35,677 nucleotides of DNA from Lentilactobacillus parabuchneri DSM 5707 = NBRC 107865 (GTDB taxonomy: Bacteria > Bacillota > Bacilli > Lactobacillales > Lactobacillaceae): positions 1-35,677 of the forward strand of contig NZ_AZGK01000021.1 of NCBI RefSeq assembly GCF_001435315.1, read 5' to 3'. Below the pieces are notes generated by a model. That model saw only the letters and a program-made list of their open reading frames with translations. It was not told the DNA's origin and made no database searches. This document shows positions 4,279 through 34,726 of the stretch, one piece after another. Positions within the stretch are counted from its first letter, which is position 1, and each line of letters starts with the position of its first letter. Position numbers and translations under genes: made by a program.

Positions 4279-4992
4279 TTAGATCATCGGTCCACCCTTA
4301 CCTTCAAGGGCAACAGCTTTCCAATTATCCCAAGTAATTTCCTTGTAGGCGGCGTCCCAAAAATACCACTCCAGCAGGCAGCTCTTCAAGAAGGTCTGCT
4401 TGGCCTGTTCCTGCTCGCGTGCGGTCGCCGACTCAGCTTCGTGATCAATGATGTTGAAGAACTGTTGAATGTAGCCATTGGGCCCTAAGAAGGCATCCCC
4501 ACTCATGGACAGGAAACTTTGAAACGGCTCTTTTTGAACTCTCGTCTGCTTGGCCATAAATTTGCCCAACTCAACATACATCCACTCCCCCGCCGCAAAC
4601 GATGGCAAAATTTGCAGAACGCTGTGGGTCTGGATAGTGGCCGCCATGTGCTGACGATACATCTGGTTAATCGGCTGAATTGGCGTTTGCTTGAGCGTTT
4701 CCCAATCATGCGGCATCGACTCCGGCTCTCGTTTTAACCAATCCCGCAGCATCGTCAGCTGCATATCCTGGCGCTTTTGAAACAGCAGCGCCTGCTCGGT
4801 GGATGTACTGTAGTTGATCAACGCATTAATCACCGCGACTTCATTATATTCAAAGGCAATATCCTGCTCGTCATAATAGCGCAGCTGACCCGACGTGAGT
4901 TGACCGCTGATGATTCCCTGAACAAACGGATGTTTTTCGTTGGCAATCAAATACGGTTGGGCGTCAAACAATATATCTTGAGACAATGACAT
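4279..4992 (-). CDS. tenA: TenA family aminopyrimidine aminohydrolase (thiaminase II)
   Basis: A 237-aa TenA/THI-4 family protein. TenA hydrolyses aminopyrimidine breakdown products of thiamine to HMP for salvage. Family features include HPFVQGIISGQL, the RYYDEQDIAFEYN segment, and the helical C-terminal part LLEWYFWDAAYKEITW. ATG 4992 has a strong AGGAGG site; the reading frame extends upstream but that part covers the riboswitch leader. It stands alone and is controlled by the TPP riboswitch at 5119-5190 with a terminator at 5026-5062. Its product HMP could be used by ThiD at 21790-22605. Confidence 0.9.
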   Translation of the reverse strand: MSLSQDILFDAQPYLIANEKHPFVQGIISGQLTSGQLRYYDEQDIAFEYNEVAVINALINYSTSTEQALLFQKRQDMQLTMLRDWLKREPESMPHDWETLKQTPIQPINQMYRQHMAATIQTHSVLQILPSFAAGEWMYVELGKFMAKQTRVQKEPFQSFLSMSGDAFLGPNGYIQQFFNIIDHEAESATAREQEQAKQTFLKSCLLEWYFWDAAYKEITWDNWKAVALEGKGGPMI

Positions 4993-5025
4993 AATCGTTC
5001 CTCCTGTAGTGGCACGGGAGCCGAT

Positions 5026-5062
5026 AAAAAAAGACCAGTCGACAAATGGATTGCCGCTGATC
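5026..5062 (-). terminator. Leader terminator of the tenA riboswitch
   Basis: On the reverse strand GATCAG (5062-5057) pairs with CTGGTC (5038-5033), followed by seven T. It sits between the TPP aptamer and tenA, as expected for transcriptional control. The stem is short, so the exact fold is uncertain. Confidence 0.55.
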
Positions 5063-5118
5063 AATGACAGTTGATGATAACATGTGACACCTGCAGCCAA
5101 ATGAATTGGTTGCCAATT

Positions 5119-5190
5119 GATCTTCCTGCGACAGTCCTAACTGCATCAGGTTCAATGGGTATCATCTCAGCCGTAAGGGCACCCCAGACC
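5119..5190 (-). promoter_or_regulatory. TPP riboswitch (THI element) of tenA
   Basis: The reverse strand carries the conserved TPP aptamer pieces in order: GGGGTGCC, GGCTGAGATGATACCC, GAACCTGATGCAGTTAG and AGGAAGATC. Terminal pairing is GGTCT with AGATC. It lies 127 nt upstream of tenA. Confidence 0.95.
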
Positions 5191-5216
5191 ACGTTTTATT
5201 TTGTTTTACACAGTTG

Positions 5217-32079: not shown

Positions 32080-32736
32080 ATGGCTAAAATGAAAGATTTC
32101 AAACAGCGCCTTTATTATTTAGGCCTTTCAATCATCATCAATTCGGCTGGAAACGCGCTGGCCATTTCTTCAAACCTGGGAAGTGCCGTTTGGACCGGTT
32201 CTGCCGTTAACCTCTCGAAATGGATCAACATCCCACTGGGAACGACCCTGTTTCTTTACGGAATTATTGTGACCATTTCCAACCAGTTACTCTTGGGTTC
32301 ATTTGACCGGCGGCGATTCTTTTCCAACCTGCTGTTCACCGTACCGTTCAGCTACCTGGTTGCCTTTTTTACCTGGATTTTTAACACAATCAGCGTTCCT
32401 GAACAAGATTTCTACATTCGACTAATCCTCGACATCATTGGCCTGTACTGTGTTGCGATGGCCGTTTCAATGTATTCTCGGTCTAATTTGATTATGCATC
32501 CAAACGATGATTTGGCTTACATCATCCGCTTTAAATACATTCATGGCAGTGCCGTCATTTCACAGTGGCTCAGTTATATCCCGCCAATTTTGATTATCGG
32601 TGCTTCCTACGTCTTTACTGGCAAGCTTTACGCAATTGGCTTCGGGACAGTTTTTGCCCTCCTTTTCCAAGGGGCAATGATGAAATGGTCGGACACCCAC
32701 GCCTTTCCAAAGCTTAAGCACCACGTCGATCTTTGA
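32080..32736 (+). CDS. YczE/YyaS/YitT family membrane protein
   Basis: A 218-aa protein with about five hydrophobic segments (LYYLGLSIIINSAGNALAISS; IPLGTTLFLYGIIVTIS; LLFTVPFSYLVAFFTWIF; LILDIIGLYCVAMAVSM; WLSYIPPILIIGASYVF). The N-terminal GNALAISSNLGSAVWTGSAVNLS pattern is characteristic of YczE-type proteins. ATG 32080 has AAGGAG about 13 nt upstream, a little far. Its 3' end overlaps the convergent esterase gene by 23 nt. Function unknown. Confidence 0.8.
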   Translation: MAKMKDFKQRLYYLGLSIIINSAGNALAISSNLGSAVWTGSAVNLSKWINIPLGTTLFLYGIIVTISNQLLLGSFDRRRFFSNLLFTVPFSYLVAFFTWIFNTISVPEQDFYIRLILDIIGLYCVAMAVSMYSRSNLIMHPNDDLAYIIRFKYIHGSAVISQWLSYIPPILIIGASYVFTGKLYAIGFGTVFALLFQGAMMKWSDTHAFPKLKHHVDL

Positions 32737-33571
32737 TGAACTCAGCAATTTGTCTAAAGGTCTTTTTTGTTTCCGACAACTTGAACCACAATGTGTAATC
32801 ATGCCAAGCATCCTTAAAGGTGGTTGGCAGTGGATTGGCGCCCTCCGCTTGGGCCATGGCATCAATCAACTTCAAATCAGAAGGAACCAGCATTTCATTT
32901 TCTCCATAAAAGATCTGAACGTCACCAATATTTTTTAAGTTGGCCGAATTAAAAACGTCCTGCCATTTTTCGGCAGATGCCCCATCAGTAAACCAGCCGC
33001 CAATTTCCTGTAATGTTGGCAGATCCAGCAAAATATCATTTTCAGCACGCTTGGCAATTTCAGGATCGGTCAGCTTCATGTCCAGCCATGGTGAAATCAG
33101 ACTGGTTCCTAAAACCTTGCCTGGATTGTCCATGAGTAGCTGAAGAGCAAGCTTTGCCCCCGCTGAGTCGGCCACGATAAATAGTGGCAAGTCATCGTTG
33201 ACGACCTTATCGAAGACGGCTTGCGAAAAGGCCAACATATCATCAGCTGAGTTTGTTGGCAGCAACGGAAAATCCGCAATCTGTAGACGGCTATTCGCAG
33301 CCTGGGCAATTTGGGTAATCATTTCCAGTTGGTCCTCATTCATCGGGACGGTAAAAGCACCCCCGTGGAAGTACAAAATCTGACTGGTGGGATCCGCGAC
33401 CGTCTCGATGGTCACGAGTTGTCCTTTTTTAACCGGATAAATTTTGTATTCGTTTTCATTTTTCCGGAAAAGATTGATCTTTTGATTGGGTTTGATAAAA
33501 CTATGGGCGACACTTTTCTTGTAGTCCTCAGCGCGAAACTTCCTAAGATACCTTTTCGCCATAAAACTCAT
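32714..33571 (-). CDS. Alpha/beta hydrolase of the esterase (HSL) type
   Basis: A 285-aa hydrolase. Oxyanion loop YFHGGAF, nucleophile Ser in VADSAGAKL, Asp or Glu in IFYGENEML, His in DAWHDYTLWF: a full triad. The HGGAF and DSAG motifs place it in the hormone-sensitive-lipase group. No signal peptide. ATG 33571 has AAGGAGG; the frame could start 24 nt earlier. It overlaps the YczE-type gene tail to tail. Substrate probably short-chain esters. Confidence 0.85.
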   Translation of the reverse strand: MSFMAKRYLRKFRAEDYKKSVAHSFIKPNQKINLFRKNENEYKIYPVKKGQLVTIETVADPTSQILYFHGGAFTVPMNEDQLEMITQIAQAANSRLQIADFPLLPTNSADDMLAFSQAVFDKVVNDDLPLFIVADSAGAKLALQLLMDNPGKVLGTSLISPWLDMKLTDPEIAKRAENDILLDLPTLQEIGGWFTDGASAEKWQDVFNSANLKNIGDVQIFYGENEMLVPSDLKLIDAMAQAEGANPLPTTFKDAWHDYTLWFKLSETKKTFRQIAEFIKDRRGA

Positions 33572-33659
33572 TGCGATTCCTCCTTCAAAAACCATTTGTT
33601 GGTATCAATTGTAATACAAATCAAATTTATCGCACAAATTGTGGTCAAACTCAGAAAAG

Positions 33660-33713
33660 TTCACAAAATCTTCACAAATTATTCAAAGTTTAAACACATT
33701 ATTTCGCTATAGT
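33660..33713 (+). promoter_or_regulatory. Pho-box-like promoter A
   Basis: Hexamers TTCACA (33660), TTCACA (33671), TTCAAA (33682) and AACACA (33693) at exact 11-nt steps; -10 TATAGT at 33708, 15 nt after the last hexamer start. There is no -35 of its own, as expected for an activator-dependent promoter. TTCACA direct repeats at this spacing resemble PhoP boxes; the regulator is an inference. Confidence 0.8.
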
Positions 33714-33719
33714 ATTAGG

Positions 33720-33857
33720 TGAAACATAAAGTGATGTATCACTTTGTGCGAGCAATAGATTAAATCCCCCTTTAATTTATTACTTTTGTATTCATATTCT
33801 TCCCCTAGAATAAATATAGGTAAACGGAAATAAGGCATCCCCGTGCCTTATTTTTTT
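33720..33857 (+). ncRNA. Putative small RNA A
   Basis: Predicted transcript of about 138 nt from the promoter above. Hairpin 1 AAAGTGA/TCACTTT (33728-33745). Hairpin 2 ATTAAA/TTTAAT with loop TCCCCC (33759-33776). Hairpin 3 TATTCT/AGAATA with loop TCCCCT (33795-33812). Terminator AATAAGGCA/TGCCTTATT with loop TCCCCG and a T-run (33829-33857). No open reading frame with a ribosome binding site. Three loops carry runs of C that could pair with GGGGA of ribosome binding sites. Ends are estimates. Confidence 0.7.
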
Positions 33858-33885
33858 ATCCATAAATCTTGACCGCATCGATAAA

Positions 33886-33939
33886 TTCACAAAATCTTCA
33901 CAATTTGGTCACACTTTATTCAGATTTATTTAGTATCAT
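33886..33939 (+). promoter_or_regulatory. Pho-box-like promoter B
   Basis: Hexamers TTCACA (33886), TTCACA (33897), GTCACA (33908) and TTCAGA (33919) at 11-nt steps; -10 TATCAT at 33934, again 15 nt after the last hexamer start. Confidence 0.8.
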
Positions 33940-33945
33940 AGTAAC

Positions 33946-34078
33946 TGTAAAGTTGTAAGCAGACAACTTTCACTTCGCAAATTGTCATAATGATAAATTC
34001 ACTTTTGATTAAACCTTATCTCCCCCTCAAAAGATTAAGGTCTTAAAGAAGCCGGGCGCGTTAGTCATGGCTTTTTTT
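33946..34078 (+). ncRNA. Putative small RNA B
   Basis: Predicted transcript of about 133 nt. Hairpin 1 AAAGTTGT/ACAACTTT (33949-33970). A hairpin with CCTTATC (34014-34020) and GATTAAGG (34033-34040) exposes TCCCCCTC in the loop. A weaker terminator, AAGCC/GGCTT plus seven T, ends at 34078. No coding capacity seen. Confidence 0.65.
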
Positions 34079-34168
34079 GTTGGCTAAAAAAGCATTTTGG
34101 GTGTTCACTACCATTAGAATCACTTTACATAAGCAGTCCGATGAACATTGCATTTTGTTTTACTAATA

Positions 34169-34222
34169 TTCACAAAAGTTTCACACTTTATTCGCACATT
34201 ATTTACATTTTTACGTTATATT
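34169..34222 (+). promoter_or_regulatory. Pho-box-like promoter C
   Basis: Hexamers TTCACA (34169), TTCACA (34180), TTCGCA (34191) and TTTACA (34202) at 11-nt steps; -10 TATATT at 34217, again 15 nt after the last hexamer start. Confidence 0.8.
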
Positions 34223-34228
34223 ATAGAC

Positions 34229-34391
34229 ATGAGCAAGAGATAAACAGTGATTTATTTCTACTCACCCCCAATAATATTGAGAAGTAAGTTAATGCTGCCA
34301 TTGATCTACTTTTCACAGCAACCCTTATAATTCATATTCCCCTCAGAATATTGAACGAAAAGGTCTGACACCCCCCTGTCAGGCCTTTTTT
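34229..34391 (+). ncRNA. Putative small RNA C
   Basis: Predicted transcript of about 163 nt. A short 5' hairpin ATAAA/TTTAT, then CTCA/TGAG with loop CCCCC, then ATATTC/GAATAT with loop CCCTCA (34334-34351), then terminator CTGACA/TGTCAG with loop CCCCCC and T-run (34361-34391). ATTCATATTC...CCCCT.AGAATA is shared with RNA A, so they are paralogues. It is 66 nt before the toxin gene. Confidence 0.7.
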
Positions 34392-34456
34392 CATGTCGTA
34401 TTTTATCGCAATAAGAGGATATAATTAAATTAAACTAACCCGAAAGGAAAACCGTA

Positions 34457-34726
34457 ATGCCAAAATACCAGCCAAAGTATCAATCCAGATTCAAAAAACA
34501 CTATCAAAATATGATCAGAGCGAATCGCTACACTGAAGCTGAATTCAAAGTTGTTGAAGACCAAATTTTAAGCGGAAAGCCGGTGGCTGAAAAATACGAT
34601 GACCACGTCATTAAAAGCCGCAAACCGCAACGCGCCTTATTTATCAAGGGCAGTTGGCTACTCATTTATGAGGTAGTGGGTGATACGGTGCGCTTTTTAG
34701 ATACCGGCAGACATGGCGAAATTTAA
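34457..34726 (+). CDS. YafQ-family toxin, without visible antitoxin
   Basis: An 89-aa protein of the RelE/ParE superfamily, YafQ type: basic helical start SRFKKHYQNMIRANRYTEAEF, then YDDHVIKS, strands PQRALFIKGSWLLIYEVV and DTVRFLDTGRHGEI, where the C-terminal TGRHGE equals the catalytic TGSHSD region of YafQ. YafQ cleaves mRNA at the ribosome. The usual upstream DinJ-like antitoxin gene is absent: only the sRNA array lies upstream. ATG 34457 has AAAGGAAAA. A -10 TATAAT is at 34420-34425. It may be an orphan or be controlled elsewhere. Confidence 0.8.
   Translation: MPKYQPKYQSRFKKHYQNMIRANRYTEAEFKVVEDQILSGKPVAEKYDDHVIKSRKPQRALFIKGSWLLIYEVVGDTVRFLDTGRHGEI

Follow-up and report, generated by a model that had tools for sequence, protein, structure and literature searches.

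What do three successive promoter-like units produce, and which regulator would switch them on, at positions 33596–34456 of the Lentilactobacillus parabuchneri DSM 5707 window (the whole stretch of DNA that was analysed, 35,677 nucleotides)? The initial annotation proposed an undescribed family of tandem small RNAs (sRNAs), possibly responsive to phosphate. The explanation that we favour, with a probability of about 0.72 for the whole, is that the three units are separate genes for trans-acting sRNAs, belonging to a family present in several genera of the Lactobacillaceae, which would be activated by a YclJ-like response regulator and would block Shine–Dalgarno (SD) sites. The promoter elements of the three units are the following.

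33660–33698, forward strand: activator box of unit 1, four hexamers at 11-nt steps (sequence reading and shuffles)
33708–33713, forward strand: −10 box of unit 1, TATAGT
33886–33924, forward strand: activator box of unit 2 (sequence reading)
33934–33939, forward strand: −10 box of unit 2, TATCAT
34169–34207, forward strand: activator box of unit 3 (sequence reading)
34217–34222, forward strand: −10 box of unit 3, TATATT

The regular layout that had been described was confirmed, with four hexamers at exact 11-nt steps in each unit. The hexamers start at 33660, 33671, 33682 and 33693 in unit 1 (TTCACA, TTCACA, TTCAAA, AACACA), at 33886, 33897, 33908 and 33919 in unit 2 (TTCACA, TTCACA, GTCACA, TTCAGA), and at 34169, 34180, 34191 and 34202 in unit 3 (TTCACA, TTCACA, TTCGCA, TTTACA). 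The constant distance of 15 nt to the −10 box also holds for all three, provided that it is counted from the start of the fourth hexamer; the −10 box lies 9 nt past the end of that hexamer. When the window was scored for four TTCACA frames at 11-nt steps, the top three sites were units 1–3 (21, 22 and 22 of 24), and a score of 21 was reached by none of 100 Markov-1 shuffles of the window searched on both strands. No TTGACA-like −35 element 17 nt upstream of the −10 box was seen in the base table of 52 related units. Direct-repeat boxes together with the lack of a −35 hexamer give the layout of an activator-dependent promoter of the OmpR type. This layout is kept in related species, which supports the proposal of OmpR-type direct-repeat promoters in front of tandem C-rich sRNA genes.

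Each promoter is followed by a structured predicted transcript with C-runs and then by a terminator-like end.

33720–33857, forward strand: predicted sRNA of type A (unit 1), about 138 nt, four hairpins (start placed from the −10 box; fold, alignment A1, covariance model R1)
33946–34077, forward strand: predicted sRNA of type B (unit 2), about 132 nt, with the C-run UCUCCCCCUC (fold weakest of the three; relatives)
34231–34391, forward strand: predicted sRNA of type C (unit 3), about 161 nt (fold, alignment A2 of 13 sequences)

The computed folds of units 1 and 3 are far more stable than those of shuffled sequences (z = −6.2 and −8.5; equalled by 0 of 200 shuffles in each case), and that of unit 2 is modest (z = −2.5; 4 of 200). 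In unit 1, the C-runs occupy two internal loops (UCCCCC and UUCCCCUA) and the terminator loop. In type C, they are found in a single-stranded stretch, in one hairpin loop and in the loop of the terminator, and one C-run loop present in relatives has decayed. Hairpins with C-run loops followed by a terminator had been described for all three units; in unit 2 the fold is modest, and this strain lacks a C-run in the terminator loop. No Rfam family exceeded its threshold at 33596–34456. The weak matches there, BTnc231, rli43 and SCARNA7 (E up to 1), lie far under threshold and were taken as chance. A literature search through titles and the starts of abstracts, with most subscription journals outside its reach, found no lactobacillus sRNA regulon of this kind among the matches listed. 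Within this scope, the family is indeed undescribed.

The locus was matched in 24 of 24 Lentilactobacillus genomes, our own included (blastn E ≤ 0.001; weakest match about 5e-5), and the RNA-only covariance model of type A, R1, also matches all 24. A locus holds up to three consecutive units of types A, B and C, and type A occurs twice in some genomes. The type A core is almost invariant: two hairpins carry C5 and C4 in their loops, and the loop of the terminator is C4. In the type A alignment, A1 (23 sequences from 20 genomes), 98.2% of the cells are paired and four pairs carry changes in both partners, the consensus structure being derived from the same alignment on which the pairs were counted, as was that of the eight-copy alignment below. 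The paired cells, changed pairs, changed cells and covariation score of A1 each lie above all 500 shuffles, and its number of further pair types was reached by 102 of 500. The spacing of the promoter is kept as well. A hexamer-only scan (at least 18 of 24, no −10 box required) gave 41 forward-strand matches in the 24 genus sequences, and TANNNT stands at offset 48 in 41/41 of them, against 0 to 9 at the other offsets from 36 to 74; with G020, which is nearly identical to the window, left out, the count is 38/38. At this threshold the scan had no match in G011, G012, G018 and G019. These four are included in a looser list of 52 units from 23 sequences (without G020), which required a −10 box and two downstream C-runs, hence leans towards these features, and from which unit 2 of the window is absent. 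The listed units were picked with a TTCAYA consensus that tolerated a single mismatch in the first hexamer and two in the second; these two hexamers read TTCACA, N-TTT follows, and position 3 is C in 52/52. Hexamer spacing and loops are thus conserved in related species, as the sRNA proposal demanded.

Relatives outside the genus were sought by running R1 and a second model, R2, on 397 genomes of the family drawn evenly from a larger group; both models describe the RNA only, with no promoter included. Beyond the genus, R1 gave three weaker matches. Two of them, in genus g4, belong to clusters, one of five copies and one of at least three, whose TTCAYA boxes keep the register; the third, in G222 (L093), has a best box score of 14 of 24 and was taken as chance. 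R2, built from eight g4 copies without their promoters, matches 38 of the 397 genomes in seven genera. Among the matches listed, 27 of 30 R2 loci have the promoter upstream (at least 19 of 21), a score reached by 3 of 1178 random stretches of the same loci. Loci L432 and L433 are cut by contig ends, and their promoter became visible after longer sequence was taken; L296 scores only 17 of 21. Eight further places with weak R2 matches were read. Four of them have a box (G150 and G125 of g9, G090 of g35, G065 of g4), and four have none and were taken as chance (G159 and G306 of g23, G180 of g22, G138 of g25). Promoter-bearing members are thus seen in four genera: g1, g4, g9 and g35. The covariance search therefore extends the family from the genus to three others with the same promoter upstream. 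Copy number can be high, with seven units within one 3.5-kb piece of G385 (L434). In the eight-copy alignment, 94.3% of the cells are paired, and none of 500 shuffles equals it in paired cells or covariation score; its changed pairs were reached by 39 of 500 shuffles and its further pair types by 153. A 37-copy alignment (A4), in which the terminators were misaligned and only 4 pairs were predicted, was kept out of the evidence. Neither the window locus nor the seven-copy cluster matched any plasmid record. An exact 18-base scan of named genomes returned 21 stretches, 17 of them from Lentilactobacillus or Lactobacillaceae; the other four (an archaeon, a Flavobacteriaceae member, Nostoc and Clostridium) are unrelated and were taken as chance. 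The family is thus found in every searched genome of a food and silage genus and recurs in three more genera.

What the computations show is the box geometry and how well it is conserved, the structure of the RNA, its distribution, and the difference from the pst boxes; for transcription, the regulator, signal, mode of action and targets we infer the following course of events. An OmpR-type regulator other than PhoP would bind the TTCA(C/T)A direct repeats, spaced at 11 bp, just upstream of a −10 box with no usable −35 element. Its most likely identity is a YclJ-like response regulator, with the histidine kinase encoded next to it. Once the signal arrives, several copies of the C-rich RNA would be made at once, and their C-run loops would pair with G-rich SD sites and thereby keep a set of mRNAs from being translated. 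Plausible targets are cydA, ndh2, pntAB, the second GAPDH gene and SLAP-type surface proteins. The same regulator would probably switch on the glsB-amaP-asp23 stress operon directly.

Judged from the boxes and the regulators encoded, an OmpR-type protein other than PhoP is the likelier regulator, and the best candidate, which we think is probably right, is the YclJ-like response regulator at G000:C1:68014–68742 (the L178 type). A histidine kinase with a HAMP domain is encoded next after it. Proteins of this type share 54–56% identity with what we take to be the B. subtilis YclJ sequence, and 44–47% is reached by the next best type, WalR. Ogura and colleagues reportedly found in 2010 that YclJ binds TTCATANTTT repeats; the consensus TTCA(C/T)A-N-TTT would fit this motif. 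Among NCBIfam models, PieR scores best for the protein, at 259.8 bits against a cut-off of 450, and none of the 25 matches listed exceeds the cut-off of its family. The L178 type has the recognition helix RTVDAHVKKLRQKIE, which none of the seven other OmpR-type proteins in our genome shares.

The YclJ-like regulator is present in one copy in 33 of 40 tested genomes. All 17 tested genomes with promoter-bearing sRNAs have it once (71–79% identity outside our own genome). It is missing in G159, G306 and G180, which have weak R2 matches without a box, and is present in G138, whose R2 match likewise has no box; it also occurs in 15 of the 19 tested genomes in which neither R1 nor R2 has a match. 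By genus, the tested genomes that lack the gene are one each from g2, g7, g8, g16 and g22 and both of those from g23. We read this distribution as consistent with that of the sRNAs rather than as proof. Presence does not single out the YclJ-like regulator, because WalR, the CovR/LisR-like and the VanR-like types occur equally with the L178 type in all six genomes whose regulators were read. Autoregulation gave no pointer to the regulator: upstream of 39 regulator genes in the six genomes (up to 900 nt), no TTCACA box was convincing, the best scoring 18 of 24 (L216).

Another common OmpR-type regulator, of the CovR/LisR-like L181 or the VanR-like L183 type, could instead drive the sRNAs. Both types are found in all six genomes read, including that of L. 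laojiaonis (G012), and TTCACA boxes at the glsB operon and at surface-protein genes would suit an envelope-stress regulator; the L183 type adjoins a gene for a D-Ala-D-Ala carboxypeptidase-like protein. Against this, their recognition helices, VVDVYIRYLRNKID and TVMVHVSHLRDKIE (by eye), differ from RTVDAHVKKLRQKIE of the YclJ-like protein, and the CovR motif, ATTARA, does not fit the boxes. There is a precedent in LhrC, a multicopy C-rich sRNA under LisRK control (PMC4132741, partial text). On balance we consider such a regulator unlikely, though a serious competitor. Control by CiaR is also unlikely: the box differs from that of CiaR (PMC3091779, partial text), and G012 encodes no CiaR-like protein. 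We keep the YclJ-like protein as the candidate activator. The biological role of the YclJ two-component system is not known even in B. subtilis according to the available part of PMC7961091, in which Ogura et al. 2010 is cited for YclJ. If the YclJ-like assignment holds, the function of that system becomes directly testable.

The initial annotation had matched the TTCACA repeats to PhoP boxes. If so, the sRNAs would belong to the Pho regulon, with PhoP binding the boxes in answer to phosphate starvation. We compared them with the pst promoters of the genus at 30 loci, those listed out of 50 pst matches; the scan left position 3 open to A, C or T but demanded a −10 box. The likeness is close: the pst promoters have the same 11-nt steps, their −10 box lies at the same 15 nt from the start of the fourth frame, and TTCACA is one base away from TTTACA. 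However, in 29 of the 30 loci frames 2 and 4 are TTTACA and frame 1 is TTTACA or TTTACG, the exception, L134 of G011, being irregular. Position 3 is T in these 29 loci, and it is C in hexamers 1 and 2 of the sRNA units (52/52), so that PhoP-type and sRNA boxes differ consistently by one base. The second argument comes from G012. PstS was matched in 23 of the 24 genus genomes, the exception being G012, which is rated 88% complete while the L. laojiaonis record is a complete 1.24-Mb chromosome. By reading, its four OmpR-type regulators are WalR, a CovR/LisR-like, a VanR-like and an L178-type protein, with no PhoP-like or CiaR-like protein among them. Yet G012 keeps the sRNA units and the box geometry. 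The repeat spacing is therefore that of the pst promoters, the hexamer type is not the TTTACA of the pst boxes, and the sRNAs are not restricted to genomes with PhoP. On box identity and on G012 we reject PhoP and phosphate control, now an improbable reading. Spacing identical to that of a Pho box need not mean a Pho box; here two regulons of one cell seem to be told apart by a single base. As a separate observation, an OmpR-type protein with a degenerate-looking receiver (G000:C12:197905–198132, L184) is encoded divergently from one pstS gene, and a similar protein is found in G310 (L210).

The boxes are not confined to sRNA genes. In the 24 genomes, TTCACA-N5-TTCACA occurs 103 times (sRNA boxes included), against 11 for the reversed pattern. 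We read 20 regions around matches outside the sRNA loci and named the genes from their translations. The glsB-amaP-asp23 operon has a TTCACA pair upstream, and all 7 of the loci read keep TANNNT in the sRNA register; the sRNA regulator probably activates this stress operon directly. Other pairs, between genes for SLAP-type surface proteins and upstream of a gene for a 171-aa protein before an rmlB-like gene, have no −10 box in the sRNA register. At L263, L264 and L265, in three genomes, a four-frame TTCACA/TACACA box between SLAP-type genes is followed by an inverted repeat, and no −10 box was seen at the usual place beside these three. L251 and L252 carry TTCACA pairs near SLAP-type genes in other arrangements.

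The units share the traits of multicopy C-rich sRNAs driven by response regulators, taken as a functional kind: there is more than one copy, and every copy has a direct-repeat promoter to itself, C-runs and an end that resembles a terminator. The streptococcal csRNAs under CiaRH are likewise several short sRNA genes, each with an 11-bp direct-repeat promoter, a −10 box and a terminator, and they carry sequences complementary to SD sites (PMC3091779, partial text). The CiaR box is NTTAAG-N5-TTTAAG with the −10 box ten nt after it (same partial text), whereas the Lentilactobacillus units have TTCA(C/T)A in several frames with the −10 box nine nt after and have no Rfam match; G012 keeps the sRNA while missing a CiaR-like protein. 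LhrC1-5 of Listeria monocytogenes are also multicopy and controlled by a two-component system, LisRK, and the lapB SD region is bound by their UCCC sites in the two loops and the segment joining these (PMC4132741, partial text). The hairpins here differ from those of LhrC in number and form, and none of the three weak Rfam matches in 33596–34456 is to LhrC. No LisR consensus for comparison is given in the available part of PMC4132741. RoxS/RsaE of Bacillus and Staphylococcus (ResDE/SrrAB) have C-rich regions as well; they are activated by an OmpR-type regulator of the oxygen/NO response and have redox-related targets (PMC4409812, partial text), and the candidate targets here include cydA, ndh2 and pntAB. 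The Rfam covariance model of RsaE/RoxS does not match the locus. By analogy, the family may work like csRNAs, LhrC and RoxS/RsaE; the tests made do not show it to be a member of any of them.

Blocking of SD sites by the C-run loops is the most likely mode of action on the sequence comparisons made. In our genome, AAGGGGG-N4-10-ATG occurs 47 times, against 6 in the control, an excess due in part to SD sites being G-rich anyway. The G-run sites precede 38 start codons that open frames of 60 codons or more, with one site entering the count twice. By reading of translations, the genes concerned include cydA, the divergent ndh2, pntA, a second transhydrogenase gene and the second GAPDH gene, as well as two 3-hydroxyacyl-CoA dehydrogenase-like genes, dltA and several surface-protein genes. 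The cydA site is conserved. The gene is found in 18 of the 24 genus genomes, and its leader has at least five Gs in all 18 and six Gs in 17; the six genomes that lack cydA keep the sRNA. The G-run of the second GAPDH gene, gap2, is kept in 10 leaders and in L377, and not in the copies of other species. In its 10 leaders seen, the other GAPDH gene carries AAAGGAGG (among the 30 loci listed out of 44 GAPDH matches). The ndh2 site was seen in our own genome only. Predicted duplexes of type A with nine G-run leaders range from −20 to −33, and among 22 background leaders of window genes the best value is −32 and the median −17. These energies are favourable but overlap the background, and the targets are thus a lead, not a result. 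G-run SD sequences may also have other causes. The proposed pairing with ribosome binding sites has some backing from the excess of G-run SD sites, the genes behind them and the conserved cydA G-run, and the duplex energies are not decisive.

The C-rich RNAs might mainly bind a protein or titrate another RNA, rather than cover SD sites. Repeated C-run loops in each molecule and several copies per genome would suit such a role, and an RNA sponge of B. subtilis RoxS has been reported (PMC8216469, partial text). On the other hand, for LhrC on lapB, pairing of C-run sites with the SD region has been tested as the mode of action (PMC4132741, partial text), SD pairing has been suggested for the csRNAs (PMC3091779, partial text), and the cydA G-run SD is conserved; we give protein binding or titration little probability. 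With SD blocking kept as the preferred mode, a more specific picture may be drawn, although we hold it to be doubtful in its full extent: the little-studied YclJK-type system would drive from one to at least seven tandem sRNAs against aerobic respiration (cydA/ndh2), pyridine-nucleotide metabolism and surface proteins, and would activate glsB/asp23. If true, this would be a Lactobacillaceae counterpart of the RoxS and csRNA circuits, acting through G-run SD sites.

That the units code for short peptides, or form a functionless repeat element, is highly improbable: tandem copies vary in number and a TTG-started frame of 9–15 codons is open in 15 of the 23 aligned unit-1 sequences, but this frame is missing in 8 of the 23, no reading frame of at least 8 codons is common to all 23 (which upholds the earlier description of units without a reading frame), loops and stems are near-invariant in these 23 sequences from 20 genomes, and the promoter is found in units of 23 genomes.

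The sRNA cluster has the following divergent neighbour.

32714–33595, reverse strand: alpha/beta hydrolase (PF07859)

The hydrolase gene adjoins the locus divergently in 23 of the 24 sequences compared, the exception being G012, and it is not thought to be part of the sRNA mechanism. Directly 3′ of the cluster lies a YafQ-type toxin gene (PF15738; window 34457–34726, forward strand), for which no antitoxin partner was recognised. It follows the cluster in 13 of the 24 sequences compared, some of which end soon after the cluster. Elsewhere in the window, the only Rfam match over threshold is a TPP riboswitch (RF00059, 65.3 bits) at 5106–5196 on the reverse strand, and the frame downstream of it (4279–5100, reverse strand) looks by eye like a TenA-type thiaminase.
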